This document shows positions 8,760 to 46,596 of a stretch of 64,000 nt of DNA, in pieces. The stretch comes from an uncultured Bryobacterales bacterium (GTDB taxonomy: Bacteria > Acidobacteriota > Terriglobia > Bryobacterales > UBA6623): contig OX638379.1 in the NCBI GenBank assembly GCA_951813605.1, forward strand, positions 1,188,471-1,252,470. The letters run 5' to 3'. Within the stretch, counting starts at the first letter, position 1. Every line of letters begins with the position of its first letter. The notes under the pieces were generated by a model. It did no database searches and was not told the origin of the DNA. It saw only the letters and a list, made by a program, of their open reading frames with translations. A program made the translations under genes and the position numbers.

Positions 8760-9381
8760 TATCCCAGTAGCGCGACGTGAGCCACGTCGCCCCGTCCGCG
8801 ATTAAGCCACTGTTTTGCTGGGACTTACGCGGTGCCCGCACGTCAGAGTCCTCTGGAATTTTGGGTTAAACGCTTGCCCCGCACTGTGTCCGAATCGTGT
8901 CGCGCTCGACCGCATTGTCCTCGGTCCCGGCCCTTTGCTCCACCCGCTCCGCAGTGGGTTGCCCTCACTTGTTCGCGCGTTTCCCAGTTCGCATGGTCGA
9001 GTCTGACTCCTCCATCCCGCTCATCGGACTTCCGATTCCCACCTTCCCTCCGCTGCCAGGCACGACCGCTGTGCGAAATGGAGACCTCGCAGGTTCCTTG
9101 ACAGAACGTACGCACCTGCCTGGCTACTTCGACACCGCGAAGGCCGAACCGGGTTTCAACATGACGGCCGTAACGGTATTGCCTTCAGCCGGTTGGACAT
9201 CCGCGGCACTTCGAACGGATGGCTTTTCGCTGCTCCATTGCCTTGCCCGCGCGCGCCCCTGTGAACGCTTCATCTGCCGCCTCGCGACGACCGGCCGATC
9301 ACCCGTGGTGAACGTAATTTGTTACTCCTTCCTTGCCGTCGGACTTCCACCGGCTGTCGTGCCAAAGTTAGCCGGTCGCAC
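8760..9381 (-). other. probable group II intron 5' remnant (RNA part, no reverse transcriptase)
   Basis: No reading frame on either strand in this stretch looks like a protein. Read leftward from 9381, it starts GTGCGAC, matching the group II intron 5' consensus GTGYG. An inverted repeat CCGGCT/AGCCGG (9350-9375) follows at once, as in domain I, then GGTGGAAGTCCGACGGCAAGG and later GTCAAGGAACCTGCGAGG, which look like group II intron domain I text. No domain V hairpin and no intron-encoded reverse transcriptase is present. The sequence stops near 8760, where transposase debris begins. It is best read as the 5' part of a truncated intron; it could be another structured mobile RNA. Confidence 0.4.
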
Positions 9382-27933: not shown

Positions 27934-30207
27934 ATGCGCAGACTCGACATGACCACACGAACCATTTTCCGAATTGCGCTCGTCGTAGCGCTCACCCTAA
28001 ATGCGGTGCTGGCAGACTCAGGCGAAGCCACAGAAGATCCGTATTGGAGCCGGAACCTAGCCTCCTACACTGCGGCAAGTCCAGGTGCCGACGGGCGACC
28101 GGCCACTTTGCCAGCGAGGCTTATCCCCCCGCCCGTTGCGTCCCCAAAGATCGACCTTGGATTCTCACGGGTGCGGACCGTCTTCGACGGAACTGACCTG
28201 ACCGTCACGTCGATCACTGGCGGGCTGCCCCATAGCGTGTTTGGATTTGCGGCGGCCGAAGCCATGAACCCTCCGGAGCTTGGCGGAACCTTCCCGCTCC
28301 CGCCTCCGCATGTGTTCTCGGTCGGATTGCCGTCGTTGAGCAACCCTGCGAGCGGAGCGTTGTCGTGGGCTGGGACCTTGGTCGGCACGGATGGCGGGTC
28401 TGGTCTGCATGGCAGCACAATCCTCGGAGGCGTAGACATCGTCATTAGCGACTTCTTGAATCCGAGGGCCGAGATTGCGTTTCGCAGTCTCATCGATTTC
28501 GACGCCAAGACTTCCTTGGATCCGATGGCATGGTCGGATGTGCCGATTAAGGACGGAGCTTTTGCCGCAGGGACCGCAGGAAACCGAGTCGAAGGGAGGT
28601 TTTACGGTCCAGATCACCAGGAGGTCGGGGGCACCTTTGAAAGCGTTGGCATCGTCGGCGCATTTGGTGCCCAGAGAGTCCAGGCCACCATGCCGCCCCA
28701 ATTGGGGACTCGATGGGCGGATCTCAGCGAGCCTCCAGGATTCCTTGCCTCGGTCTCTCGAGCCCTCTTAACGGGAGATTTCACATTTGAGGGCATCGCC
28801 CGCTCGTCGTCGCAAATGGGGTCCTCAGCGGCACTCGCACAGCTCGCGGACTTGCAATCGACCGTGGGCGAGGCTTCTTTGGATTTCGGGCCATCAACGG
28901 TCGGCCTTCGAGGCTCGATCCCAAGCGATGGCATGCGGCACTGGCGCGTCGAATGGCTCTCGAAGCTCGGAATCGGTGTCCAGGGCTTCGAACTCGAGCT
29001 TGACCTCGAATTCACGGGGCTCCTCAGCTGGCTACGCAACGGCGGCACATTTGTTGGCGAGAGCCAGCTCTCGTTCGTCGAAGGAATCGAAGGGATTTCC
29101 CTGCCCGATGTCAATATCACGTACCAAACAGCGTTCGGCAGCAACGTATTGGTCACTCCGTTCCACGAGGGTGCCCAATGGAATGGATCGATTGCGGGGA
29201 AGGACATCAGTGCAATTCAGGCCAGCGGAGATTCGATCGCTGGCAATGCGAATCTGACGATCACCGACTTGTCGCCAGCCGGCGTGGACGTCGAATTCAC
29301 AAACGTTATCGAAACTCGAGGAGGCGGACCACGTACCGACATGGCTTGGACTGCCGTGCCAGTGTCTGGCGGCGTTTTTCGATCCAATGAAAACGGGGAC
29401 ACGATTCAAGGGATATTCCTCGGCCCTAGCACCGATGAGGCCGTAGGGATTTTCGAACGGGACGGCGTGTTCGGAACGTTTAGCACAGTCCGCTCGGATT
29501 CCACTGTGTCCGTGCCGGATTCACCAACCCGTTCATTCGAGGTCCTGGCCTACCTGGATACATTGAATCTCGAGTCGATTTCCAACGCGGTCGCGGCCTT
29601 TGCCGCAGACCCTAATCTGTTGGATACCCTCCTCGCCAGTGCAACCTTGACACAATCGACACACAACGGAATTGCATTCACGGAAGCTCGCTCGTATCAG
29701 ATTCCAGTGGGTCGAGAGGCTGCCAACTTCGAGGTGCTCGGGGGCTGGCTCGAGCACGGTTTCTTCGCAGTCACGGGAATCCGGAGCGGTCCGTTGGACG
29801 CTCCAGTTTCCAACAATATCTGGGCGGCAGTGACCCTCGGCCACAGCGCGGGTTCGAATCCGCCGTCGGGAAGGGCGCGCTGGGCTGGAGCGATGCAAGG
29901 CATCGACGTGAGCGGCAGCGCCACTCACGGCAACCGGGTCCGAGGCGACGCCTCGATAGCATTCGAGGATGTCCGCTACGCAAACGTGGACGTTGTGTTC
30001 ACGGAAGTCGTCGACCTCTCCACGAATTCCCTCAGAAGCGACATGGAGTGGTGGGGCATTCCGCTGTCTGCAGGTGCGTTCGAAGCGTCGGTAGGAAGCC
30101 ACCGAGTTTCCGGCCAGTTCTTCGGGCCCCGACACGAGGAAGTCGCCGGGACGTTTCACTGGCACGATATCCTAGGCGCTTTCGGCGCGAAACGCACGCA
30201 ACCCTGA
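27934..30207 (+). CDS. secreted protein with three tandem TbpB-like beta-barrel domains
   Basis: This is a 757-residue protein with a type I signal peptide (TIFRIALVVALTLNAVLADSG). Its hallmark is a block repeated three times at the end of each unit: VEGRFYGPDHQEVGGTFESVG then GAFGAQR (28.59-28.68 kb), IQGIFLGPSTDEAVGIFERDG then GTFSTVR (29.40-29.49 kb), and VSGQFFGPRHEEVAGTFHWHD then GAFGAKR (30.11-30.20 kb). The F-Y-G-P-x-x-x-E-V-G-G-T-F ... G-A-F-G-A-K-R signature is that of the transferrin-binding protein B barrel (PF01298-like). Each unit also has a D-W/M-A/E-W-x-x-x-P segment (MAWSDVPIKDG, MAWTAVPVSGG, MEWWGIPLSAG). There is no lipobox. Ligand unknown; surface binding is inference. ATG at 27934 has a plausible ribosome site; 27949 is an alternative. 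Confidence 0.8.
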   Translation: MRRLDMTTRTIFRIALVVALTLNAVLADSGEATEDPYWSRNLASYTAASPGADGRPATLPARLIPPPVASPKIDLGFSRVRTVFDGTDLTVTSITGGLPHSVFGFAAAEAMNPPELGGTFPLPPPHVFSVGLPSLSNPASGALSWAGTLVGTDGGSGLHGSTILGGVDIVISDFLNPRAEIAFRSLIDFDAKTSLDPMAWSDVPIKDGAFAAGTAGNRVEGRFYGPDHQEVGGTFESVGIVGAFGAQRVQATMPPQLGTRWADLSEPPGFLASVSRALLTGDFTFEGIARSSSQMGSSAALAQLADLQSTVGEASLDFGPSTVGLRGSIPSDGMRHWRVEWLSKLGIGVQGFELELDLEFTGLLSWLRNGGTFVGESQLSFVEGIEGISLPDVNITYQTAFGSNVLVTPFHEGAQWNGSIAGKDISAIQASGDSIAGNANLTITDLSPAGVDVEFTNVIETRGGGPRTDMAWTAVPVSGGVFRSNENGDTIQGIFLGPSTDEAVGIFERDGVFGTFSTVRSDSTVSVPDSPTRSFEVLAYLDTLNLESISNAVAAFAADPNLLDTLLASATLTQSTHNGIAFTEARSYQIPVGREAANFEVLGGWLEHGFFAVTGIRSGPLDAPVSNNIWAAVTLGHSAGSNPPSGRARWAGAMQGIDVSGSATHGNRVRGDASIAFEDVRYANVDVVFTEVVDLSTNSLRSDMEWWGIPLSAGAFEASVGSHRVSGQFFGPRHEEVAGTFHWHDILGAFGAKRTQP

Positions 30208-30258: not shown

Positions 30259-31356
30259 TCACGCTTCAGCCGCGTCCTTCAGCGATTGCAAGTATCCGAT
30301 GGCGAACGCCCAACTCATCTCGGCCCCGACCGTGTCTCCCGTGAATGCCGGCGTGTGGTCCGGTATCAAGAGATACCGGTACCCGACGTCGGAGAACGCC
30401 TGCATGCAGGCAAGCATGTTGCAATCGCCCGCGTCGTGTCGCACCTCGAGATACTTGTAGTAGGGGATGTCCACACGCACGTTGCGGAAATGCACGTGGT
30501 TGATCCGGTCGCGCGAACCGAAGTAGCGGATCGCCTCGGCGGCGTCCTCGCCCATTTCAGTGGTCACCCCGGTGTCGAGCGTGATGCCGTTCGCCGGGCT
30601 GTCGACAGTCTCGATCAACCGTATCTGGTCAGCGATTGAGCGCACCGGCTGGGCCGCGCCGCGGTATACCGGGACTGGCGGGTCATTGGGATGCAACGCC
30701 AGACGCACTCCGGACTGTTCGGCGACGGGTATCACTTCGCGCAGGAAGGACTCGAGGCGCTCCCACATCTGTTCGCGTGTGTGCTCGCCGACATTGGGCA
30801 GGGGAGGGAGGTTGCGTGTCCGGGCCTCGTCGTAGTCCCTGAGCCCGATACCACTCGGGCCGGTTGTTCTCGAATAGCCCTCCGATCCACGGAGGGGCGT
30901 GAAATTGTATTCCAAGACCGGGATTCCGAGTTCTCCGATGAGCCGGATATTGGCCTTGGCCGCATCGACTTCACGGTCCGCGCCAGGCCTGCCCAAGGTC
31001 ACGAGATTCATCCGGCCCAGATGCACCATCGCCGGATTCAAGCCCTTGCTTTCGATCCTCGACTTGATTCGTGACAGCTCGTCGCGGTTCCAAGGCTGTC
31101 GCGGGGCGTCGCTTGCGGGGCCGGTGTCAGTGCGCGGCACCAGACCGCGCCGGCTCACCCGTACCGAGTAGCGCGTGGGCATCACAACGTGCCGAATACC
31201 GAGGCTTTGGTAGAAATCGAGCGTCTGATCTGAAAGGTCCCGCAAGCCCTTGCCGAGTTTCAGCCGGTGTTTCCCGGTCCTCGTGTGACACGCAGCAAAC
31301 GACACCGCCGCGATGGCCGCGGCGCCTGCAAGGAGGCTTCGCCTTGTGCGCGTCAT
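30259..31356 (-). CDS. TIM-barrel protein, mannonate-dehydratase-like, exported
   Basis: This is a 365-residue protein of the xylose-isomerase-like TIM-barrel group. The N-terminus MTRTRRSLLAGAAAIAAVSFAACH has a twin-arginine-like pair and a possible lipobox (FAAC). Later text resembles UxuA-type mannonate dehydratases: VLEYNFTPLRGSEGYSRT, GVRLALHPNDPPVPVYRG, ANGITLDTGVTTEMG, INHVHFRNVRVDIP (His) and EVRHDAGDCNM. These are positions of the metal ligands (Glu/His/Asp). The gene overlaps its upstream neighbour by four bases (ATGA, 31353-31356), so the two are translationally coupled. An exported dehydratase is odd because the substrate is usually cytoplasmic. Substrate unproven. Confidence 0.82.
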   Translation of the reverse strand: MTRTRRSLLAGAAAIAAVSFAACHTRTGKHRLKLGKGLRDLSDQTLDFYQSLGIRHVVMPTRYSVRVSRRGLVPRTDTGPASDAPRQPWNRDELSRIKSRIESKGLNPAMVHLGRMNLVTLGRPGADREVDAAKANIRLIGELGIPVLEYNFTPLRGSEGYSRTTGPSGIGLRDYDEARTRNLPPLPNVGEHTREQMWERLESFLREVIPVAEQSGVRLALHPNDPPVPVYRGAAQPVRSIADQIRLIETVDSPANGITLDTGVTTEMGEDAAEAIRYFGSRDRINHVHFRNVRVDIPYYKYLEVRHDAGDCNMLACMQAFSDVGYRYLLIPDHTPAFTGDTVGAEMSWAFAIGYLQSLKDAAEA

Positions 31357-32309
31357 GCGTTCACCGCCTGCACAAGCCCCCGGATATAGCCGTGCGCGTA
31401 GGAACACCCGATCTTGTTCTCTCGCAGATCTGTCGGGAATGACTCGGCGTGATCGGAAACGATGGCGAGAACGTAGCCGGATTCCTTGTACGCCCGCATG
31501 ACCGCCAGACTATTCGGATACTCTCCCAGGCTTCCCCGCGGCGGGAGAATGGCCGCGGAATTGAACTCGGCATGGTGGATTCGGCCGGCTGCGCCGATCC
31601 GACGAATCGCTTCGATAGTGTCGGCTTCCATGCCGGGGATTGTTCGATGGGACATTGTGAAGCCGTTGGCCGGGCTTGGGATCGTGGAGAAATAACGCTC
31701 GATTTGCGCGAGCGACACGAAGACCCGGGCAGGGCCGGATACTCCTATCCGTTGCACGTCATTCGGACGCAGCGACATCTTGATGCCGGCTCGCTCGGCA
31801 GTCTCCATCACTCCGTCGCCGAAGTGAGCCAGCCTGTCCAAGACCTCGGTTGAAGAAATGTCCTTTCCCCAACGGGCCTCTGCCGACCACGGCCACTCCA
31901 CGACCGCTACCCCTCCCTCGCCTGCCGAGACAAGACTCGTGCAAATGTTCTCGATAGCCCTGTCACGTTCGTCGTTGTCCAGCCTCGGACCGTCGAGCCA
32001 ACGGGCCGGGAGTCTCAGGCAGGCCAGTCGAAGGCCGAAGGCGCTGCAGCGATCCTGCACGTTCTCGATGTCCCCCCTCGACCAATAGCCTTTTCGTCCG
32101 ATGTCTATGTTTTCGGTCACGGTAAGCGCGACCCATTCAAGGCCCAGCTGGCCAACCCAGCGGAGCGTCGATTCGTCCAAGCCGCTCACGTTCTCGGCAA
32201 GGCGCGGCTTCCAATCGCCAGCCACGGTAGGGGTTGCCGCCGACTGGCCCGACGAACCCGCGGCCCAAGGAGCCGCTGAAGCGAGCGGTATGAAATTACG
32301 GCGCTTCAC
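31353..32309 (-). CDS. TIM-barrel paralogue, exported, possibly catalytically weakened
   Basis: This 318-residue protein starts at GTG 32309 with MKRRNFIPLASAAPWAAGSSG, an export-type signal. It shares the layout of the next gene: GIKMSLRPNDVQRIGVSGPAR (compare LALHPNDPP), ANGFTMSHRTIPGMEADT (compare ANGITLDTGVTTEMG), RIHHAEFNSAAILPP (compare INHVHFRNVRVDIP) and the final SYAHGYIRGLVQAVNA (compare SWAFAIGYLQSLKDA). Several would-be metal ligands differ: His to Arg before PND, Asp to Ser in the TLDTG block. Its stop overlaps the start of the downstream paralogue (ATGA). The two may form a heteromer, with this copy non-catalytic; that is inference. Confidence 0.78.
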   Translation of the reverse strand: MKRRNFIPLASAAPWAAGSSGQSAATPTVAGDWKPRLAENVSGLDESTLRWVGQLGLEWVALTVTENIDIGRKGYWSRGDIENVQDRCSAFGLRLACLRLPARWLDGPRLDNDERDRAIENICTSLVSAGEGGVAVVEWPWSAEARWGKDISSTEVLDRLAHFGDGVMETAERAGIKMSLRPNDVQRIGVSGPARVFVSLAQIERYFSTIPSPANGFTMSHRTIPGMEADTIEAIRRIGAAGRIHHAEFNSAAILPPRGSLGEYPNSLAVMRAYKESGYVLAIVSDHAESFPTDLRENKIGCSYAHGYIRGLVQAVNA

Positions 32310-32892: not shown

Positions 32893-33405
32893 TCAGTAGA
32901 CTGGCGTCCCGTACGGAACCGGCGTCTCGACGCGTCGAATGTCGCTGACGCGGGCGATCTTCCAGCCGCCGCCAGTTCGTTCAAGATAGATTTCTTGCAC
33001 TTCGTTGCGATCGGCGTAAACGTACTCAACCCGCACTTCCGCCTCGTGGCCGACCTCCTTCGGAGCGTTCATGGCGATCCCCTTGATGTCTCGGTTTCGC
33101 TCCCGCAGGAACTTGGAAAAGCGATCCGCCCCCATCTCTTCGAGACTCTGGCGGAGCGTGCGGTCCATCTGGCCCACGTAGCAGTCCAGGTAGTCGTCAA
33201 CGATTCCGTCACGCGCCGCGTCCAGCATCGCGTAGATGACGTCTCGCGGCTCGGCTTCCTTCGAGGCTCCGATTCCAAGGAAGCCACCCTCGTAGCTGGT
33301 GCCGCGCCACAAGGCGTCGAATCCTCCTTGATTCCACGCGATGACTCCAAGGGCGGCTGCAATGAGGGTGATGGTGATGGCCTGGGCCTTGGCGTCCTTG
33401 CTCAT
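32893..33405 (-). CDS. small membrane-anchored protein, last gene of the metal ATPase/SPFH operon
   Basis: This 170-residue protein (start ATG 33405, after GGAG) has one N-terminal membrane helix (AQAITITLIAAALGVIAW) and a soluble domain of ~125 residues. The soluble part (DVIYAMLDAARDGIVDDYLDC, then LRERNRDIKGIAMNAPKE, EVRVEYVYADRNEVQEIYLER and GGGWKIARV) has the helix-then-four-strand layout of NTF2/DUF4878-like domains. The family is not recognised with certainty. It starts 11 bp after the stop of the upstream SPFH gene, so it is the fourth member of that operon. It may be a periplasmic partner of the SPFH complex. Confidence 0.75.
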   Translation of the reverse strand: MSKDAKAQAITITLIAAALGVIAWNQGGFDALWRGTSYEGGFLGIGASKEAEPRDVIYAMLDAARDGIVDDYLDCYVGQMDRTLRQSLEEMGADRFSKFLRERNRDIKGIAMNAPKEVGHEAEVRVEYVYADRNEVQEIYLERTGGGWKIARVSDIRRVETPVPYGTPVY

Positions 33406-33416
33406 GGCTCCGATGG

Positions 33417-34394
33417 TCAACGAGTTGCGCCGCGTCGGATGATTGTCAGATCGAGGTTGCCGTTGTCGCCGACGATCGTCTTCCGCAGGCGCGGCAGCAC
33501 TTCTTCCATGGTCTCCAGGTACAGGCGGTTCCGCGTGACTCCCGGGTTCTTGCGGTACTCGGAGGCAAGCTGCTCGAAGCGAGCGGCATCGCCTTGCGCT
33601 TGCTGCGTTTTCCGCTCACGGTACCCTCGCGAAGCGGATAGCATTTGCTGGGCCTCTCCACGTGCGCGAGGCAGTATGTCGTTCGCGTATCCTTCCGCCT
33701 GGTTGACGATGCGCACGGCGTCCGCCCTCGCTGAAGCCACGTCCCGGAACGCATCCGCTGCCTCGGGAGGCGGCGAAACGGAGCGAATGCTCACGGTCGA
33801 CAGAACCACCCCCAGTCTGTGCCGATCGACCACTTCTTGCGAAATGCGTCGAACTTCCTCCTGGATCGCGATTTTCTCGGTCGTCAGAATCTCGTCCACC
33901 ACTCGCGAGGAAATCTGCTGCCCCAGAGCTGCCTCCACGGCGTTCGCGACCGCTCGGTCTACGTCTAGGGACCGAAAGAGGTACTGGGCGGGCTCGGCGA
34001 TGCTGTACTGGACGACCGCGCGCACGTTGAGGATGTTCTGATCACCGCTGAGGAATTGCGAAAGCACCGGGTCGGCAGGTATGGCGTTGGCCTCGTCGGC
34101 AACCTCGCCGCCAATGAAGGCGCGCTTCAGTTCGCGTGCCTTGAGCTTATGGACCCGGCCCACAGGCCACGGCCAGTGCCACCCAACCCCTGGAGTGACC
34201 TGATCGGCCGCGATCGCGCCGAACGTTGTCAGTACCGCTTGCTGCTCGGTCTGGACGACGTACACCCCTGCGATCAGCCAGATGGCGGCCAACCCGACTG
34301 CGAGATGTCGTCGCGACACCCGCCGGATGGCCGAGGCGGCCGTCGCGATCACGGGAACCGCAGTGTCGTGCGTCGGTTGGGAGCGGACATGCAT
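33417..34394 (-). CDS. HflK-like SPFH (prohibitin) protein
   Basis: This is a 325-residue protein with one membrane helix (RRHLAVGLAAIWLIAGVYVV) and an SPFH/Band 7 domain. The signature runs are VQTEQQAVLTTFGAIAADQVT, then GVGWHWPWPVGRVHKL, LSGDQNILNVRAVVQYSIAEP and ISSRVVDEILTTEKIAIQEEV, followed by a coiled coil (ASARADAVRIVNQAEGYANDI; RARGEAQQMLSA). The GDQNI and VVQYSI motifs are typical of HflK, the partner of HflC that modulates the membrane protease FtsH. It is third in an operon of four, 5 bp after the His-rich SPFH gene. The order (metal ATPase with fused HflK, HflC-like, HflK-like) gives three SPFH modules in one transcript, which is unusual. Confidence 0.9.
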   Translation of the reverse strand: MHVRSQPTHDTAVPVIATAASAIRRVSRRHLAVGLAAIWLIAGVYVVQTEQQAVLTTFGAIAADQVTPGVGWHWPWPVGRVHKLKARELKRAFIGGEVADEANAIPADPVLSQFLSGDQNILNVRAVVQYSIAEPAQYLFRSLDVDRAVANAVEAALGQQISSRVVDEILTTEKIAIQEEVRRISQEVVDRHRLGVVLSTVSIRSVSPPPEAADAFRDVASARADAVRIVNQAEGYANDILPRARGEAQQMLSASRGYRERKTQQAQGDAARFEQLASEYRKNPGVTRNRLYLETMEEVLPRLRKTIVGDNGNLDLTIIRRGATR

Positions 34395-34399
34395 GGCGG

Positions 34400-35404
34400 C
34401 TACTGGCCCCGGGTCATCAGACGCAGGAGTTCCGAATCCGCGCTAAGAATCACGGTCGTGTCCTTGTCGAGCGCCTTGCGATATGTCTCGAGCGTCCGGG
34501 TGAGTTTGTAGAATGCTTCGTTTCTGGAATAGGCGGCGCCGTATATCCGGGCTGCTTGCGCGTCTCCGTCCCCCTTGGTGGTCTCGGCCTCCTTGTAGGC
34601 CTTGGCAAGGATTTCTTCCTTCTTCCGGTCTGCCTCCGCTCGGATCCTCAAGGCCTGCTCCTCACCTTCGGCACGGTATTGCCGGGCGATCCGCTCGCGT
34701 TCGGCCCTCATGCGGGCGTAGACGCTTTGCTTGTTCTGCTCGGGCAGATTCAGGCGTTTGATCCGAACGTCCACGACCCGGATGCCGTATCTCTCCAAGG
34801 CCTCGGCGCCGCTGCGCTCCGCTAGCTTGTCGAGCGCCTTGTCGGTCTTGACGAGCTTTGGAGAGGTCGACACGATCTCTTCGAGATCCAACCCCGCGAC
34901 TGCCGCCGCGAGCCCCGCCCAGACCAAGTCGTGCAGCCGCATTTCGGCCGCCCGCTCGTTGCCAACCGTCTGCACGAAGGCTTCGGGATCCGCGATCTGC
35001 CAGAGCGCGTAGCTGTCAATGCTCAGGTTTTTCTTGTCCATTGTCAGGAACTCGGAACGCGGCGGATTGTAAACGCGCAGCCGCCGGTCAAAGAACTGCA
35101 CTTGGTGCAGCAACGGCACCTTGGCATTCAGGCCCGCCTCTGTAACCGTCCCAACGGGCTTGCCGAATTGCGTGACTAAGGCGAACTCGGTCTCGCGCAC
35201 GGTGAACAACGTCGACCAAGCAATGAGCAATGCTGCAACCGCAATCAGCCATGAGCGGTAGCGGTTCCAGAACAGCTCCCATTCGAACGGGTCCCGGCGC
35301 TGATGGGAATGCCCGTGGCTGGCGTGGTGGTGATCATGGTCGTGGTGGTGTTCGTGACCGTGCGAATGGGAATGATGATCGTGGGAATGGCTGTGGTCGT
35401 GCAT
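34400..35404 (-). CDS. HflC-like SPFH protein with histidine-rich N-terminus
   Basis: This is a 334-residue protein. Residues 2-34 contain 19 histidines in an MHDHSHSHDHHSHSH...-type run, a clear potential metal-binding tail that would lie on the cytoplasmic side before the membrane helix (SWLIAVAALLIAWSTLFTV). The rest is an HflC-type SPFH domain: VRETEFALVTQFGKPVGTVTE, then AGLNAKVPLLHQVQFFDRRL, MDKKNLSIDSYALWQIADPEA, YGIRVVDVRIKRLNLPEQNKQ and SVYARMRAERERIARQYRAEG, followed by a coiled coil. It begins 3 bp after the stop of the ATPase-SPFH gene, so it is translated with it. Such a His-rich leader on an HflC protein is not one I know; metal sensing or buffering next to a metal pump is the natural reading. 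Confidence 0.9.
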   Translation of the reverse strand: MHDHSHSHDHHSHSHGHEHHHDHDHHHASHGHSHQRRDPFEWELFWNRYRSWLIAVAALLIAWSTLFTVRETEFALVTQFGKPVGTVTEAGLNAKVPLLHQVQFFDRRLRVYNPPRSEFLTMDKKNLSIDSYALWQIADPEAFVQTVGNERAAEMRLHDLVWAGLAAAVAGLDLEEIVSTSPKLVKTDKALDKLAERSGAEALERYGIRVVDVRIKRLNLPEQNKQSVYARMRAERERIARQYRAEGEEQALRIRAEADRKKEEILAKAYKEAETTKGDGDAQAARIYGAAYSRNEAFYKLTRTLETYRKALDKDTTVILSADSELLRLMTRGQ

Positions 35405-35407
35405 GGC

Positions 35408-38400
35408 TTACTCACCGGGTTCGGGCATCTCAAACGGAGGGGGAGGCTGCTGCATCTGGGCTCCGGGAGGAGCCACCAGCACTCCGTCATCCACGGTCCA
35501 GAGCGTGCGTCGGCCGCCGTTCGAATCGAGGACGAGCTTCTTGCGTCCAGGCAGGATATCCTCCATCGCCTCGAGATACAGGCGGGTCGATGTGGCCGCG
35601 GGCGCCGTGCGGTAGGCGGATTCCAGCTGGCGAAAGCGTGCTGCGTCGCCGCCGGCTCGGTCGGACCGGCTCGCCAAATACGCCTTGGCCTCTTGGATCA
35701 GCGCTTCGCCCTGACCGCGCGCCAGGGCCACCTGCTCGTTGGCGTACCCTTCCGCTTCGTTGATCATGCGGCTCTTCTCCTCAAGAGCCCCGGCGACCTC
35801 GCGGAAAGCGTCGACGACTTCAACGGAGGGATGCATGTCTTGGAACCGAACGTGCAGCACGCGAACGCCCGCGCGGTAGGCGTCCAACCGGTCGCTCAAT
35901 TCGGCCGCGGCGAGCAACTCTGCCTCGTGACGACCGATCGTAAGGAGGGCGTCGAGCGAGACCGTGTTGACAACCGAGCGAAGCGCCGCCTCGGATACGG
36001 CGCGAATCAAGGTCTCCGTGTCCACGTGCTGGAACAGGAAGTCGTCCGGCCGGGTGATGTCGTAGTGCACCACGGCGGTCATTTCGATCATGTTCTGATC
36101 GCCGGTCAGCATCAAGGTTTCCTCGTCTTCGAGTTGGATCCGGCCGTCACGGTGCTGGACGTTCCACTCGTATGAAGGAGGCTGGCTGAACGAAGCAGTT
36201 TCGGATGTGCGGAAACCGATCTCCACCACTCGCACTTGCTTCGCGCGAATCCTGGTAAGGCGGTCTACCGGCCAGGGAACCTTGAAGTGCAAGCCCGGCT
36301 CGCGATGCGGCAGCACCTTGCGCCCGAAACGCTCGATCACACCCAACTCGTTTGTGCGGATCGTGAACACCGATGTCGAGATCCACGTTGCCAGAAACAG
36401 GGCGGCGGCCGGTTTCGCGAGCTGGCGGCGGTTCTCCACCAGCCAAGCGAAGCCGCCGGCTGGATCGATCCGCCTCAGGACGCTGACAAGCGATTCCCAG
36501 ATGAGCCCGATCCCGAGAAAACCCCAAAGCTTCTGCCACCGGGAGACCTGTTCCGCGGGCCGCTCGACCCTGAGCAGCCGCACCGAGTTGAGCATGACGA
36601 AAATCGACGAGATTTGGTGAACTCCCGCAGCCAGCGCCGGCCCCATCCACCCCTTGCCCGCGATGTAGACAGCGACGACATTGACCACTCCCGCGAACAG
36701 GATGATGTTCTGCCAAACGGTCGTGACCGCATTGCGCGACACCCCGAAGACTTTGGGCAGCCTTCCGATCTGCGGATTGAGATCGACCACGTCCGCGGCC
36801 TCGGCCGCGATGTCGGCCCCCGAGCCCGAAATCGCTATCCCAACATCTGCCGCAGCCAGAGCAGGCGCGTCGTTGACGCCATCGCCGATCATGGCGACCT
36901 TGCGTCCTTGCACTTGGAGTTGCTTGATGCGATCCAGCTTCTGTTCCGGCAGGAGCTCCGCTTCCACATGGGTGATTCCGACGACGCGCGCCATGGCGTC
37001 AGCCGCCTTTCGCCGGTCGCCGGTCAGAAGAATGACGTTGGCGATTCCGAGATCCTCGATCTCGCGGACCGCGTCGTGAGCGCCTTGCTTGGGTGTGTCG
37101 CGCAGCAGGATCGCTCCTGCGAAAATGTCGCCATTCGCGACCAGCACGGGCGTGGCCCCGGCGCTGTCTGCGGCGGCCAAGTAATCTGCCAGGCCTTCGA
37201 TGCCGCTTTCGCTGAGGAACGCTTCGTTCCCGGCTCGCACAACCCGCCCGTCAAGGACGCACTGGGCTCCGCGTCCGGGTACGATCTGCGCGTCTGTCGA
37301 TTCCTCGGCGGCGAATCCGCGTTCCTCGGCGCTGCGGACGATCACTCGAGCCAGGGGATGGTCCGAACTTGCCTCCGCCGTGGCACCTAGGGCGAGGACC
37401 TGCTGCTCGGTATGCCCTGGAGCGACGAGAATCTCTACGATTTCGAATGCGCCGGTGGTCAGGGTCCCTGTCTTGTCGAATACGACCGTGTCGATCTCGG
37501 AGGCCTTTTGCACCACTTGGCCGCCGCGCGCCAGCAGGCCGCGTCGCGCCAAGCCTCCGATAGCTGCCACCATCGCCGCCGGAGTGGCCAGTATCAGCGC
37601 ACAGGGGCATCCCACGATCAGGACCGCGACGGCGCGGCGCACGCGCTCGGTGGTTTCGGCGTCGCTGGAAAGCAGATAGACAGCTCCGGCGGCCAGCAGG
37701 ATCGCCGGAAGGAAGTAGCGCGCGTAGCGGTCAGCTACGCGCACCACCGGCGCAGTCCGGTGGTCACGCGCCTCTTCCACCAAGTGGATCAGCCGAGCCA
37801 GCGTGGACTCGTCCCCGGCGTGGGTGACACGCACGTGCAGCCGGCCGTGGCTATTGACTGTGCCCGAGAAGACCTCGTCGCCCTCGGCCTTGTCGCGAGG
37901 GACGGACTCGCCCGTGATTGGGCTTTCGTCGACCGAAGACTCCCCTTGCTCGACGATGCCGTCCGCTGAGATCCGCTCGCCGGCACGGACGATGATGACG
38001 TCCCCGGGAGCCAAGTCTTCTACGTGGACCTCGACCTCAGTGCCGTCCCGCAGGACACGAGCATGGTGGGGCAGTTGATCCACGAACCGGTGGATCGCCC
38101 GCTCAGTGCGCCCGGCCGCCCAAGCCTCCAGGCCTTCGCCGAGCAGCATGATGAACATCGCTTCCGCAGCGGCGAGGTACTCGCCGATAGCGAGCGCCGC
38201 GAGCGCGGCGATCACGATGGCGAGGTCCGCAGATATCTTGCGGTCGAGAAGCTCGGCAATGGCGCGGTAAAAGGTCTTGTAGCCGGCAAGAACCGCAAGA
38301 AAGATCGCGGTATCGATGCCTAAGACAGAATCGAAGATCCCAAACAGGTTGAGCAGCAGCAGAACGCCGACAACCGCGGTAAACCCTACGTATTTGATTT

Positions 38401-38449
38401 GTTCCCGCCGGTCGCGATTGATCGCGTGATCCTCGGAGACAACGTGCAC
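35408..38449 (-). CDS. P1B-type heavy-metal ATPase fused to an HflK-like SPFH domain
   Basis: This 1013-residue fusion starts at GTG 38449. Residues 1-~650 are a P1B metal-transporting ATPase without an N-terminal metal-binding domain: TGES (179-182), the transmembrane metal site CPC (281-283, in VGCPCALILATPAA), the phosphorylation site DKTGTLT (Asp325) and GDGVND (522-527). Helix 8 reads GVHQISSIFVMLNSVRLL, with Gln where zinc/cadmium pumps have Asp or cobalt pumps Glu. After a linker, residues ~680-1013 add a further membrane helix and an HflK-type SPFH domain (NELGVIERFGRKVLPHREPGL, LTGDQNMIEMTAVVHYDI, EALIQEAKAYLASRSDRAGG) with a proline-rich tail. No frameshift is seen at the junction. 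Three genes follow within 11 bp gaps. A metal exporter scaffolded in an SPFH ring is inferred. Confidence 0.92.
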   Translation of the reverse strand: MHVVSEDHAINRDRREQIKYVGFTAVVGVLLLLNLFGIFDSVLGIDTAIFLAVLAGYKTFYRAIAELLDRKISADLAIVIAALAALAIGEYLAAAEAMFIMLLGEGLEAWAAGRTERAIHRFVDQLPHHARVLRDGTEVEVHVEDLAPGDVIIVRAGERISADGIVEQGESSVDESPITGESVPRDKAEGDEVFSGTVNSHGRLHVRVTHAGDESTLARLIHLVEEARDHRTAPVVRVADRYARYFLPAILLAAGAVYLLSSDAETTERVRRAVAVLIVGCPCALILATPAAMVAAIGGLARRGLLARGGQVVQKASEIDTVVFDKTGTLTTGAFEIVEILVAPGHTEQQVLALGATAEASSDHPLARVIVRSAEERGFAAEESTDAQIVPGRGAQCVLDGRVVRAGNEAFLSESGIEGLADYLAAADSAGATPVLVANGDIFAGAILLRDTPKQGAHDAVREIEDLGIANVILLTGDRRKAADAMARVVGITHVEAELLPEQKLDRIKQLQVQGRKVAMIGDGVNDAPALAAADVGIAISGSGADIAAEAADVVDLNPQIGRLPKVFGVSRNAVTTVWQNIILFAGVVNVVAVYIAGKGWMGPALAAGVHQISSIFVMLNSVRLLRVERPAEQVSRWQKLWGFLGIGLIWESLVSVLRRIDPAGGFAWLVENRRQLAKPAAALFLATWISTSVFTIRTNELGVIERFGRKVLPHREPGLHFKVPWPVDRLTRIRAKQVRVVEIGFRTSETASFSQPPSYEWNVQHRDGRIQLEDEETLMLTGDQNMIEMTAVVHYDITRPDDFLFQHVDTETLIRAVSEAALRSVVNTVSLDALLTIGRHEAELLAAAELSDRLDAYRAGVRVLHVRFQDMHPSVEVVDAFREVAGALEEKSRMINEAEGYANEQVALARGQGEALIQEAKAYLASRSDRAGGDAARFRQLESAYRTAPAATSTRLYLEAMEDILPGRKKLVLDSNGGRRTLWTVDDGVLVAPPGAQMQQPPPPFEMPEPGE

Positions 38450-41300: not shown

Positions 41301-44300
41301 TCAGCCGCCGCGCTGCATCTCGGCCTGCTTCAGCACCCATTCCCTCATCACTTGGTAGCTTGGATTGTCAGCCTTGAAGCGGACGCCGCCTTGATGCCCG
41401 TCCTCTTCGCCTGACTGGATGTTGAGAGGCTTGCGGAGGAACTTGCTCTTCTCCACATCGTGCAGGTCAACACGCTGCTGCATGCGGCGGTAGTTGCCCA
41501 AGAGCGCCGCGGGCGGTATGTAGCCGGCTGCGTCTGGCGGTTCAAGATATAGCGTCGGCACCCTTCCTGGAACGCCGTGGCAAGAGATGCAAGCGCGGTT
41601 GTCCTTCGGGTCAATCCGCGTCATCTCCGTGAACACGTAGTCACGGAAATGGATGATGTCGGCGATCCATTCATCGCTGCTTGCGAGAGGCCTTACTTCG
41701 CCCGCGCGTTGCTCGGCACTGCTTTCGAGGATCAGCTCTCGCAGGCGCTTGCCGTAGACCTTGTCGTCGCTGTTCAGGATGTTCTCGATCCGCGTGCGAT
41801 ACACCGGGCTCGGCTCGTGCTCGACCCATGCCGCAAGCGCCTTCAGCACTTCGGGATGACGGCGGAGCGCCGTCTTGTTTGCGAGTGCGATGGCTTGCTT
41901 GCGAACATCTTCCGGCGTTGCGGTGGAGAACCACGAAGTGAACATCTCGATCAGGCGGTCCTTGGCTTCGACGATCGGGTCGATCACGTCGATGCCCAGC
42001 TCGTCCTTGGTGAAGAGCGATCCAGCGCTTTCGCCAGCCTCTAGCTTCAGATAGTCAATCCCGAAAATGTAATTCTTCTCGGCATCCGGGTTGGCCCCGA
42101 CCATGCGGAAGGAAAGCTCGTTCTGCCCTTGCCGGAAGGTATGGACCCCCAGCGAGACCGGCCCGAGAGCGGTAAGGTCCGGGCGATAGAAGTCCAGGGA
42201 ATCCCCTATCGGCTCTCCGTTCAGGGCCGGTTGGACGATGCCCATCTCGCGATCGTGCAGGAAGGCCGTGACGACTTCAAATTGCCCCGCCTCGGGTGCT
42301 TCGATCTTGAAGGTCAGTCGGTCGCCGGGAAGTCCTTCGCGCCACCAAAGGATGGTGTTGCGGCTTGTCAACCCGTGCGGCACCAGCTGCCGGGTCGTGC
42401 GCCCGCCCGTCAATTCGATTACTTCGAGTTCCTCGGCTTCGGTCGCTCCCTCGACCGCTTCCTCCAAGGTTGGCGCGCCCTCCCGAAAGCGGAGCATCCA
42501 ATCCGTGGAGGGCAGCCAGAACCGCGCCTCCCCGCCCACATGGTCGAAGGCGGAACGGCGATGAAGCGTCGGATTGTTTCCCAGCACCATGCCCAGAAGA
42601 ACGGCGCGCTCCGTGCGGATTTCGGCGGACCCGGAAGGCGCCGGGGCAGGGCGTCCTAGGAGGTGTCGCGCCGAAGCTGCGGGCCGGGGAACCTCTCCGG
42701 GCACCAATAGTTCGAAGAATTCCCGCTCGTCCTCGGCGTCGTCCTCGGAAAACCCCCAGCGAACCCTCGATAGGAACCTGATCAACGCCTCGGCGTCGTC
42801 CTGACGTCCCGCGAGCAGGAATTCGTCGAGCTTTGCGAGCAGAGGCCGGATGGTCTTTATGTTGCCCTCTAGCCGCAGCGCGCTTGGATTGGAAAGCGCC
42901 TTGGCGGCCACGGCCACTTGCTCCAGGTCATCGCTCAGGAGGAGGGCGAGAAGATGTTCCTGCAGCGGAAGAAAATTCACGTTGGCGGCCCCTTGGAGCG
43001 CGATGGACCGCCACGGCACGCCATTCTGGGCACGGCGATTGCGGTAGACGTCCAGAAGCACGCTGCCCAGTAAATTCGTTGCACCCGGTGTCGAGTAGCC
43101 GAGCTGGCCGGGGCCACCGTCGTTGCCCCGTTCCTCGAAGTGGGTGGCGGCCACGGCGGCCAGCCGTTGCTCGAACAGCTCGCGCCGCTTCCCAGCGGAG
43201 TCTCGCGCCGAGGAGAGCATCCGATAGAGATCCTCGAGCTCGCGGTACTGATGGTCGCGGTTGTCGATGCCTGTCTGGTTCGCGATCTGCCCGTTCACGA
43301 TCAACATCGATGCTGTGGAGTAGCGCAGCGCGTTCTCAACTTGGGCGTTCGTCTCGGACCGGAGAAGGGCGTCCACCCATGCCCTGTTGATGCGCTGGCG
43401 CAGTGGAGGGTTCCAGACCCACCAGTGCCACGCTGCTTTGAACGCGTAAGCGCGGACCCCTGCGAACGGATCGCGCATGGCGCGGCCGAGCAGGTCCGCC
43501 AGGGCATTGCGATCCACTTGGGAACGAGGTCCGCTCAGGTCGACCCGCATCACGAGCGCCTGGAGGATCGATTGCCTCGTGCGCTCGTCGCCGCTACGAA
43601 ATGCAGCCAGCACAGCCGGCCAGCCGTGATCGTTTAGCAGGAGCTGTCGCAATGACCAGAAAGCCGCTTCCCGACAGGCTTTGACGCGGTCGGAAAGGCC
43701 GCCAACTAGAGTTGGAATCCCGCTCGTGGCCAGCGAGCCGCCGATTCCCAGGTATCCGAAGTAACGCACCTGCGGCATCTGGTCCTCGGCAGCGTCAATC
43801 ATGAGATCGGCGAAATCGCTCTCGGAGGTGGCTTGCAGTGCCCGCACGCGGGAGAGCCTGTCCAGCGGCCTCTCGTCGGGCATCGGCTCGAAGTGCTTTC
43901 GCTCGAAGGGCTTCGCGTCGCCGGGGAACAGTCGGCTCAGGGCCCGGATCACGTATGCATTTGTCACGAATCCAGTCTGCGCCGAGCGATTCCAGAGGCC
44001 GTATTCGAACTGGTTCTGCAGGAGCCAGTGCACCGCGCGACGGACCGGCGGGCTGTCCGTGCCGTGCCCGGCCGCGCGCAGACCGATGAGCGCTACTGCC
44101 GTCGGGGCCGCGTCACCGATGTCGTCGATTCGATTCCAGGTGTCCGCCGGTTCATCGTGTACTCCGAGATCGAAGCCCCACGAGCCGTCGTCTTGTTGCA
44201 AGGCAAGCAGGCGCCTGAGGTCACGCTCCACTTGCTTTTCAAACGCCGGGAGCAGAGCGGCCGCTCGCTTGGCCAGTTCGGAGCCGTCGCTCAGCTCGGC

Positions 44301-46049
44301 AAGTTCCTTTCTCGGCAGCAAGTCGTAGAAGAACTCGATTCGATGACCGAGGTCGTCGGACACCTTGATCTGGTTGTCCCCTGTGGCGACGATCTTTTCG
44401 GCCTTGTCGACCAGTCCCACCAGATACTTCCGCTCGCCGCTGTCGCGCCAAGCTCGCTCGAGGATCTCTGCGGCGAACTTGAAAACCACGTTGGGCCCAA
44501 AATTCGATCCTTTGCCGGCGGCATTGATTCCTTGCGGGTCCGCGGTCTGCAGCACGTAATTCGCAGTTCTCTTCTGCTGGTAAGAGTGCAACTGCTTTGG
44601 CTTGAAGGTGCGCTCGTGCAGGACGATATTCCGTCCGGCCACCCTGCTGCCGGCCGGCGCGTCACCAAGATCGTTCGGGGCGAGGGACGTGTTGACGGCC
44701 GCGTCGACGAGCTTGTTAGTCGGACGCAGGCTCTCGTACATCGTGTTGACGAGGCGGCGATGGTTCTGGATCGTGCCCTCGGGTCGGTATCCGTGTCGCA
44801 AGGCGTCCGCCACGCCCCAGACGCCGCTTTGCGTGTGGCAACTCATGCAGTTCTCCCCAAAAAGGCTCGAACCGTCGCGGACCCGCCTATGGACCGCAAT
44901 GTTGCGGGGGCGATGGATCAGCCACGCGTCGATTTCCGCTAGGTGGTAGTAGATCGATTGCCACAATGCGCGTTGTGGTGTCTCGTACGGCGCGGGGTCG
45001 ACAAGGCGAACCTCCAACTCATAGCCGGGTTGATTCGCCTCCACGCGGAGGAAGTACGTTCCTCCGGGATGAACCCTTCTCGTCACGAACGAGCGGAAGT
45101 TGTCATCCTGCTGGTGGATGCGCTCGTTGACGTCCCGTCCCTCGTAGTATGTGTAGACGGGCTGCGGGCCGGGAATCACCTCCGTGTCAGGGTGAATGTA
45201 GGGGATTGCATTGTTGTTCCCAAAATCCTCTCTCTTTGCCGCTTCGCGCGGCTTGAGCTCCTCTGCCGTGGGAACGCCGGGCTTGTAAACGCGGATCCTT
45301 GCGCTGACGACCGGATCGGGCAACTGCAAGTTGGCCGTGAGGAGCTTGACGCGGTCTCCTCGATAGTCGAATCGATACCAATCGTCGGGAGAGCGGCCGG
45401 AGTCGAAATTGTCGAAGTACTCCAGCTCGTCCGTGCCGCCGACCACGCGAAGCACCTGGTCTTCAATGCCCGCTTCGAACGGTAGAGAAACGGCTTGCTC
45501 GGGAGCGTTGTTGGGTTCCGTCTCCAGCACGATGTCGCGGGCTTGGGTCTCTTGAACGGTCTCGACATGCACTTGGACTTCCGCTTGGGTGACGTTTGGC
45601 GTCCGGGACGGGACAGCGGCGGCGAGCGGGGCCAAGCCGGTGTCGCGATGGTATTTGCCACGCGGGCGCTTGCGGTCGATGACCGTCTCGAGCCGGAGTT
45701 CGTACCGGCCTTCCCTCGGTGCCTTGAACAGCACGAACACATCCGGATCGAGCTCGTGGAGGATCTTGGACCAACCGTTCTCGAGTCCGACCACAAGGTC
45801 GCCTCGCTCCTCGGTGAATGCCGGATCAGGACCTTCGGGGCCGCTCCATCGCGCCTCGATCCGAGCGTTCGCCGGAAGCTTCGCCGGACTGGCGATGCCA
45901 ACTTGGATTTGGACTGTCTGCCCCGATGCGAGGTCCCACGTTCTTGTCCAAGACCCGTCAAAGGCTATGGTCTCGGCTAGGGCAGCAGCTGGCATGAGCA
46001 AACACCAGATAGCTCCGAACCAGACCGCGCGCCCACAGTGGTGCCGCAT
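41301..46049 (-). CDS. giant secreted two-haem protein with cyclase-fold and HEAT-repeat regions
   Basis: This protein of ~1582 residues has a signal peptide (VWFGAIWCLLMPAAALAET; start ATG 46049). Its order is: N-terminal beta-rich regions with a Glu/Pro-rich linker; a CxxCH haem site CMSCHTQSG at ~401; an alpha/alpha-barrel region recalling terpenoid-cyclase/prenyltransferase folds (LLALQQDDGSWGFDLG, ~617; QNQFEYGLWNRSAQTGF); HEAT-like helical repeats (RVKACREAAFWSLRQLLLND; DPFAGVRAYAFKAAWHWWVW); a beta-sandwich near 1300 (FLHDREMGIVQPALNG); and a second haem site, CISCHGVPGR, at ~1487. Two cytochrome c sites in a scaffold of this size suggest a periplasmic redox-linked enzyme or polymer-binding machine. 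Family name unknown to me. It is convergent with the acyl-CoA ligase. Confidence 0.82.
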   Translation of the reverse strand: MRHHCGRAVWFGAIWCLLMPAAALAETIAFDGSWTRTWDLASGQTVQIQVGIASPAKLPANARIEARWSGPEGPDPAFTEERGDLVVGLENGWSKILHELDPDVFVLFKAPREGRYELRLETVIDRKRPRGKYHRDTGLAPLAAAVPSRTPNVTQAEVQVHVETVQETQARDIVLETEPNNAPEQAVSLPFEAGIEDQVLRVVGGTDELEYFDNFDSGRSPDDWYRFDYRGDRVKLLTANLQLPDPVVSARIRVYKPGVPTAEELKPREAAKREDFGNNNAIPYIHPDTEVIPGPQPVYTYYEGRDVNERIHQQDDNFRSFVTRRVHPGGTYFLRVEANQPGYELEVRLVDPAPYETPQRALWQSIYYHLAEIDAWLIHRPRNIAVHRRVRDGSSLFGENCMSCHTQSGVWGVADALRHGYRPEGTIQNHRRLVNTMYESLRPTNKLVDAAVNTSLAPNDLGDAPAGSRVAGRNIVLHERTFKPKQLHSYQQKRTANYVLQTADPQGINAAGKGSNFGPNVVFKFAAEILERAWRDSGERKYLVGLVDKAEKIVATGDNQIKVSDDLGHRIEFFYDLLPRKELAELSDGSELAKRAAALLPAFEKQVERDLRRLLALQQDDGSWGFDLGVHDEPADTWNRIDDIGDAAPTAVALIGLRAAGHGTDSPPVRRAVHWLLQNQFEYGLWNRSAQTGFVTNAYVIRALSRLFPGDAKPFERKHFEPMPDERPLDRLSRVRALQATSESDFADLMIDAAEDQMPQVRYFGYLGIGGSLATSGIPTLVGGLSDRVKACREAAFWSLRQLLLNDHGWPAVLAAFRSGDERTRQSILQALVMRVDLSGPRSQVDRNALADLLGRAMRDPFAGVRAYAFKAAWHWWVWNPPLRQRINRAWVDALLRSETNAQVENALRYSTASMLIVNGQIANQTGIDNRDHQYRELEDLYRMLSSARDSAGKRRELFEQRLAAVAATHFEERGNDGGPGQLGYSTPGATNLLGSVLLDVYRNRRAQNGVPWRSIALQGAANVNFLPLQEHLLALLLSDDLEQVAVAAKALSNPSALRLEGNIKTIRPLLAKLDEFLLAGRQDDAEALIRFLSRVRWGFSEDDAEDEREFFELLVPGEVPRPAASARHLLGRPAPAPSGSAEIRTERAVLLGMVLGNNPTLHRRSAFDHVGGEARFWLPSTDWMLRFREGAPTLEEAVEGATEAEELEVIELTGGRTTRQLVPHGLTSRNTILWWREGLPGDRLTFKIEAPEAGQFEVVTAFLHDREMGIVQPALNGEPIGDSLDFYRPDLTALGPVSLGVHTFRQGQNELSFRMVGANPDAEKNYIFGIDYLKLEAGESAGSLFTKDELGIDVIDPIVEAKDRLIEMFTSWFSTATPEDVRKQAIALANKTALRRHPEVLKALAAWVEHEPSPVYRTRIENILNSDDKVYGKRLRELILESSAEQRAGEVRPLASSDEWIADIIHFRDYVFTEMTRIDPKDNRACISCHGVPGRVPTLYLEPPDAAGYIPPAALLGNYRRMQQRVDLHDVEKSKFLRKPLNIQSGEEDGHQGGVRFKADNPSYQVMREWVLKQAEMQRGG

Positions 46050-46596
46050 CCGTCGAGGACGCCGAGTGTTTGGGCGGATCTCTCTGGTCCGTGGGAATGA
46101 CAAAGTCGAATGGATTGGCGGTTCGATCGGGAAGTTGCGGCTGGACATGCTGGCTACCGGTATGCCACGCTCCCATGCTTCACCTCGAACTTCTTCGCCG
46201 GCGAAGGCAGCGTTTTCGGGTCGGATGTGTCGTTTCTGGCTGGGACGCGAGCTCGCATTCTTCCGGCGACGATCCCTAGCCGGAATCCATTATAGGTTCT
46301 CCGCCTTGCGCGAGTGAAGTGTCGAAGCCAATGTCGGACCTGTCCTCGTCGCAGTTGAGTGGGGTTGGGTTGACCCGGCTGAATCCGACAAGGCAGCTCG
46401 CAGGATAGGTCGCCTCTGGAGCTTGCCACGGGGAATCCGCCTGCAAGCGAACTGGTTCTTTGGCCCAAGTATCGAAAGCCACCCTCGCTGCGCCCGAAGT
46501 TCGGAACCCATCCTAGAAATCCAATGCGTCCGATCTACAGGATTCGCGCGGCGGAATCGAGGCGGATCGGCTCCCGTCGACCGACTGCCGGGGCCT
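46050..46596. other. leader region of the giant haem protein, no gene seen
   Basis: Some 547 bp between the YpdA stop and the giant-protein start. Short frames on both strands lack conserved motifs. It probably holds the promoter of the giant gene, but no clear boxes were identified. Confidence 0.3.

Follow-up and report, generated by a model that had tools for sequence, protein, structure and literature searches.

Is a reading frame that runs from a metal-transporting ATPase into an HflK-type SPFH domain a genuine protein, and if so, to what kind of machine would it belong? The question is raised by a gene in a 64,000-nucleotide window (the whole stretch of DNA analysed here) from an uncultured Bryobacterales bacterium of the Acidobacteriota (GenBank assembly GCA_951813605.1, contig OX638379.1, positions 1,188,471 to 1,252,470). 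The gene (35408..38449, minus strand, as are all features below unless stated otherwise) has a GTG start and encodes a protein of 1013 aa composed of a P1B-type metal ATPase, a linker, a transmembrane (TM) helix and an HflK/SPFH part. Its frame is unbroken over 1013 codons, from 38449 to 35408, while the plus strand of the same stretch is interrupted by stops; the original prediction had given no strand. The original prediction, that a single frame of this length holds TGES, CPC, DKTGTLT and GDGVND motifs, an extra helix and an SPFH domain, was borne out in each of these elements. We lean towards the view that the protein is a divalent-metal P1B exporter whose C-terminal part forms the HflK subunit within a dedicated HflK/HflC-type SPFH assembly.

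The domain search proposed with the original prediction returned a complete P1B ATPase and an HflK, both above their NCBIfam cut-offs. The heavy-metal P-type ATPase profile TIGR01525 matches residues 75-625 with 562 bits (cut-off 346, E=1.9e-168), and the HflK profile TIGR01933 matches residues 694-979 with 195 bits (cut-off 159). Pfam identified E1-E2_ATPase, Hydrolase and Band_7 domains, and found no match to the HMA metal-binding domain in the protein. The ATPase part (residues 22-627, 36569..38386), delimited by TIGR01525, Pfam and AlphaFold2 helices, is predicted to have eight TM helices. Its membership of the P1B family is indicated by the profile, the TGE, DKTGT and GDGxND motifs, and the CPC in TM6. 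The TGES actuator loop occupies residues 179-182 (37904..37915), of which T179, G180 and E181 are invariant, and the equally invariant CPC metal-binding motif lies in TM6 at residues 281-283 (37601..37609). They are followed by the DKTGTLT phosphorylation site (residues 325-331, 37457..37477) and the GDGVND hinge (residues 522-527, 36869..36886). Across 67 full-length frames from relatives, TGE and CPC are kept in all 67, and DKTGT and GDGxND in 66 each, and the pump half is therefore predicted to be active.

The second half of the protein has the layout of HflK. A cytosolic basic or amphipathic linker of about 45 aa (residues 628-672, 36434..36568), His-rich in some relatives, leads to an additional TM helix (residues 674-691, 36377..36430), and this in turn to the SPFH domain and coiled coil (residues 694-979, 35513..36370; TIGR01933 and Band_7). 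The model and the topology argument below identify the additional helix as the counterpart of the single N-terminal TM helix that precedes the SPFH domain in HflK, here placed after the eight helices of the pump. With its eight TM helices, the P1B core finishes on the cytosolic side; a ninth would then cross outwards, and the SPFH half should be periplasmic, oriented as in E. coli HflK, which has an N-in TM helix and a periplasmic SPFH domain (PMC12005517). The AlphaFold2 model of the fusion, built with 53 sequences (mean pLDDT 76, pTM 0.56), contains a P1B fold, linker helices, helix 674-691, the SPFH domain and a long coiled-coil helix at 876-946, and is no proof of orientation. The best PDB matches to this model in Foldseek are P1B ATPases. 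By sequence comparison, a RLYLExME..L..K...D motif (residues 956-983, 35501..35584) is common to the fusion and the C-terminal part of E. coli HflK, and its RLYLExME portion is kept in both the fused and the second HflKs of the P1B operons described below.

One element of the HflK half sets the fusions apart from canonical HflK. An insert, YEWNVQHRDG (residues 760-769, 36143..36172), lies in an SPFH loop ahead of the MLTGD motif; its consensus YEWNxQHRxGR occurs in 65/67 P1B-HflK fusions and in 0/29 canonical HflKs. The loop that bears it has a median length of 34 residues in the fusions and 22 in canonical HflK of the phylum. This loop may contact the pump. A shorter insert containing W (EWHSP, SWHAS or LIW) was observed at the same loop in some of the SO_0444 and CDF fusions introduced below.

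The fusion is old and widely conserved, with both halves kept intact, to judge from its presence at full length in many Acidobacteriota and in Armatimonadota with conserved motifs and a conserved gene set. It was found in 11/11 sampled genomes of the genus (the source genome and ten others) and also in further families. Strong matches (E<=1e-120) occur in 35/399 genomes of the class and 20/396 of the phylum, and almost all represent the fusion at full length. A scan of genome contigs gave 80 loci, mostly from Bryobacterales and other Acidobacteriota, with three from Armatimonadota (L161, L164 and L165, the first two ending at contig edges). An assembly error joining two genes, and an SPFH part missing from close homologues, had been named at the outset as what would speak against the fusion; the full-length fusion recurs at 42-85% identity across many independent assemblies, far more than chance would allow, and homologues both near and remote include the SPFH part. 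In one relative (L051/G043) an internal part of the pump seemed to be deleted, but the gap consists of N letters in the assembly and is no real loss. A search of plasmids for close relatives at the DNA level gave only a 50-base match.

The neighbourhood is as constant as the fusion itself. Downstream and on the same strand follow, in order, an hflC-type gene, a second hflK-type gene and a gene for a small membrane protein. Counting only loci with enough downstream DNA to be testable, the search for the same fusion and its neighbours found hflC at 74/74 loci and a second hflK at 66/66; the gene for the small protein was there at 56/63. The HflC partner (334 aa, 34400..35404; TIGR01932, 216 bits, cut-off 134) begins with a His-rich tail, 19 of its first 34 residues being His (35303..35404); this N-terminus, which is expected on the cytosolic side, reads MHDHSHSHDHHSHSHGHEHHHDHDHHH. 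The second HflK (325 aa, 33417..34394; TIGR01933, 217 bits) is unfused. The small membrane protein (175 aa, 32893..33420), predicted to be periplasmic, combines a single TM helix with a domain predicted to be NTF2-like; it has no significant Pfam match, and its AlphaFold2 model (pLDDT 85) retrieves NTF2/ketosteroid-isomerase-like folds in Foldseek. No other flanking gene, including metal regulators and RND genes, recurs beside the P1B operons across the wider locus set. Rfam found no riboswitch at the operon, and none of its four genes has a Pfam match to DUF1490, the PacL scaffold domain.

The P1B ATPase is not the only exporter joined to HflK. The same genome has a second operon (L054:4687-9295, 3.4597-3.4643 Mb) in which a 773-aa fusion of an SO_0444-family Cu/Zn permease and HflK is followed by hflC and hflK. 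The permease half scores 319 bits against NF033936 (cut-off 300) and includes a His-rich loop. Divergent from this operon are genes that encode a CzcB-like adaptor and an efflux protein of the outer membrane; a ZIP transporter is encoded nearby. A search of the phylum for HflC gave low-scoring, divergent sequences; nine such loci were fetched; one of them was cut off by a contig edge, and the other eight all have an exporter-HflK fusion directly upstream, five with SO_0444/ArsP_1 and three with CDF. SO_0444/ArsP_1-HflK fusions outside the source genome are found at L224-L227, L232, L242 and L243, and the CDF-HflK fusions, again followed by hflC and hflK, at L228:3356-7001, L229:6029-9675 and L230:6049-9770. 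The three CDF-HflK proteins carry HxxxD in both TM2 and TM5, which we take to be the pattern of zinc CDFs, and none of them has a match to the usual C-terminal (cytosolic dimer) domain of that family. Long open frames over hflC at two further loci (L233/L234), considered as additional fusions, were rejected as they overlap a separate hflK frame.

Canonical hflKC loci, in contrast, show no fusion (0/29), and their HflK is a plain protein of 304-385 aa. Canonical and exporter-type sets occur side by side in some genomes (e.g. G459, G415 and G507). As a separate observation, plasmids of Vibrio, Paracoccus and Methylophaga carry unfused hflK-hflC beside sodium/proton or cation/proton antiporter genes (L245:5857-9244, L246:5857-9864, L247:5923-9107).

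Phylogenies also separate the exporter-associated proteins from the canonical ones. In the HflC tree, canonical HflC forms one group (support 100/100); the HflCs associated with exporters lie elsewhere in the tree and cluster by exporter class: P1B (98/94), SO_0444 (93/83) and CDF (100/100). The tree of HflK domains unites all fused copies in one group (94/95) that excludes both canonical and second HflKs. These groups were put to the test after having been seen, and approximately unbiased (AU) tests of the grouping of fused HflKs did not reject the alternatives (p-AU 0.07-0.08). We favour a single ancestral chassis with swapped exporters over independent fusions on the basis of these sequences, a choice that the AU tests do not settle because the alternatives were not rejected.

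Which metal might the fused pump carry? The motif in TM8, HQxxSxxxxxN (residues 611-621, 36587..36619; HQxxS in 64/67), was compared with those of named subclasses. The fusion lacks the P1B-1 (Cu+) signature, YN in TM7 with MxxSS in TM8, which is present in the other P1B ATPase of the same genome (L002). Also absent from it are the P1B-2 (Zn/Cd/Pb, ZntA) signature, K in TM7 with DxG in TM8, and the P1B-4 (Co/Zn) signature, SPC in TM6 with HEG[GS]T in TM8, the SPC being replaced by CPC. HQxxS merely resembles the HEGST of the P1B-4-type ATPase 7qbz, the top PDB match by sequence. Since SO_0444 permeases have a zinc or copper role and the CDF fusions show the zinc pattern, Zn2+ suggests itself as a substrate common to the three exporter classes, and on this indirect evidence a divalent metal, Zn2+ foremost, is the most likely substrate of the fused pump. 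Growth under zinc or copper stress has been found to require SO_0444 (PMC3219624). His-rich cytosolic segments occur in P1B loci in the HflC tail (22/75, many of these loci being close relatives of one another), in the linker between pump and HflK (10) and at the N-terminus of the pump (7), and in 0/30 canonical HflCs and 0/29 canonical HflKs, a comparison confounded because the canonical tails are short (means of 4 and 15 aa, respectively). Besides this confounding, several points weigh against our reading: the TM8 motif does not match any named P1B subclass, which makes the metal identity indirect; SO_0444 has been linked to copper in addition to zinc; many P1B operons have no obvious His-rich segment; and the confidence of the fused model is moderate.

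We hypothesize that the parts would work together as follows. From the cytosolic C-terminus of the pump after TM8, the chain would pass through the linker and outwards through the ninth TM helix to the periplasmic SPFH domain and coiled coil. The fusion would form a ring or dome together with two further products of the operon: HflC, which would alternate as usual, and the second HflK. The pump would be carried at some HflK positions only, the unfused HflK acting as a spacer where a pump is too bulky. Cytosolic His-rich tails, here that of HflC, could gather metal at the pump entrance, and the dome may keep several exporters together and stabilise or compartmentalise them, in the place that FtsH has in the E. 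coli cage. Within this scheme we infer co-assembly, the spacer role, the identity of the metal, an effect on transport and any involvement of FtsH. A metal exporter with its own scaffold was the better supported of the two readings put forward in the original prediction, and the fusion at its core is real; the scaffold is not self-contained, as hflC and a second hflK always lie downstream, and it is not particular to the pump, as SO_0444 and CDF exporters are fused to HflK likewise. The other reading, in which the pump powers or gates an SPFH ring, finds no support, because the CDF and SO_0444 exporters that fill the same place are not ATPases.

Control of exporter turnover would give the fused HflK another part: it would tether the pump to FtsH, and HflK/C would shield the exporter from proteolysis or present it, depending on metal status. 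HflK and HflC are known FtsH modulators, and FtsH binds HflK/C via HflK (PMC13220708). The source genome encodes a single FtsH and canonical hflKC was not found there (the remaining SPFH genes are by inspection of stomatin, prohibitin and flotillin types), yet this ftsH lies far from the fusion, at 4.75 Mb. The contact residues point in both directions. An Arg matching R185 of E. coli HflK is retained in most P1B-type fused HflK domains but missing from the second HflKs of P1B operons (11/11), and in place of the loop that holds the FtsH-contact residues R141/E142 in E. coli (PMC13220708) stands the longer YEWN insert; these two residues are unconserved even in the canonical HflK of this phylum, which weakens them as an indicator of FtsH binding. 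On balance, we regard turnover control as improbable.

Still less probable is a periplasmic metal chamber, in which the SPFH dome would enclose the exporter outlet and hold the metal or hand it to periplasmic or outer-membrane efflux parts. The dome would lie over the exit side of the exporter by topology, and the predicted location of the small fourth protein fits the proposal, as do the adaptor and outer-membrane efflux genes that adjoin the SO_0444-HflK operon; such neighbours do not recur at P1B operons, however, no adaptor or outer-membrane homologue was seen around another SO_0444 locus (L243, G100), and, the YEWN..H insert aside, the SPFH part showed no conserved cluster of metal sites. 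We give marginally less credence again to an ordinary pump with a passive SPFH tail, i.e. a chance in-frame fusion of neighbours that have no functional link. Fusions of adjacent co-transcribed genes are common, and unfused SO_0444 permeases of the same kind occur in sister genomes, but here the fusion has kept both halves intact in different phyla, at identities as low as 42%, and three unrelated exporter families share one layout with HflC and a second HflK. That the frame is an artefact of assembly has a negligible probability: the relatives are metagenome assemblies, in which false joins can arise, but dozens of assemblies made independently carry this same frame without interruption, and we rejected this explanation.

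The closest structural precedent for our preferred reading, the exporter as an HflK subunit, is the HflK-HflC-FtsH complex of E. coli, a 24-mer SPFH cage of 12 HflK/HflC heterodimers (PMC12624060, PMC13220708, PMC12005517). The two systems share both families above their NCBIfam cut-offs, an N-in TM helix with a periplasmic SPFH domain (predicted here), the RLYLExME motif and adjacent hflK and hflC genes; they differ in that here HflK is fused to an exporter, a second HflK is constant, HflC belongs to a separate lineage, no ftsH is near and the YEWN insert is present. The nearest functional parallel is PacL1-CtpC, a zinc-efflux platform in which a membrane scaffold with a His motif, encoded in one operon with a P1B exporter, organises that exporter (PMC9374683, PMC13043812); the DLHDHDH motif of the scaffold binds zinc, and the scaffold clusters and stabilises the pump (PMC9374683). 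PacL, however, is a small DUF1490 protein that is not of the SPFH type, is non-homologous, acts in trans and forms foci independently of flotillin, whereas the scaffold described here is covalently joined to the exporter. Like the P1B ATPases ZntA, CopA and 7qbz, the fusion has the catalytic motifs, CPC, eight TM helices and the P1B fold; unlike them, it lacks HMA, has HQxxS in TM8 and bears a C-terminal HflK extension. SO_0444 permeases (PMC3219624) and CDF exporters, the exporter halves of the sister fusions, are normally free-standing, and the CDF versions carry HflK with no match to the usual C-terminal cytosolic dimer domain. The parts are thus known, and their combination is without description in the literature searched, where no published account of an exporter-HflK/SPFH fusion was found; the word ATPase is absent from a 2009 survey of prokaryotic SPFH proteins.

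Several other features of the window were noted. A group II intron RNA match (RF02005, 84 bits, 9123-9347, minus strand; Rfam) has no obvious reverse transcriptase beside it, there being no open frame of >=250 aa between 8349 and 10278. A 757-aa protein (27934-30207, plus strand) contains two TbpB_B_D stretches (transferrin-binding protein B-type barrel, E=2e-12), unexpected in Acidobacteriota. Two neighbouring UxuA-type/xylose-isomerase-like TIM-barrel genes (30259-32309) are probably a duplication, and a 1615-aa protein (41301-46148) has weak cytochrome c, HEAT-repeat and squalene-hopene-cyclase-type matches.

In eukaryotes, SPFH proteins of the stomatin family, a different SPFH subfamily, regulate channels and transporters as separate proteins. 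Three kinds of exporter tied to HflK, with HflC always alongside, are direct genomic evidence for coupling of SPFH proteins and transporters in bacteria. They may represent a new class of machine, a proposal we make with some reserve: modular cages of HflK and HflC with metal exporters built in, where a single SPFH chassis is paired with at least three unrelated families (P1B, SO_0444 and CDF), possibly by exporter swapping. The finding bears on two open questions, what assemblies of HflK and HflC do other than hold FtsH and whether transporters are direct targets of SPFH scaffolds. The fusions offer clean test proteins for the effect of a scaffold on metal export, and they provide a large and little-cultured phylum with a candidate metal-resistance system.

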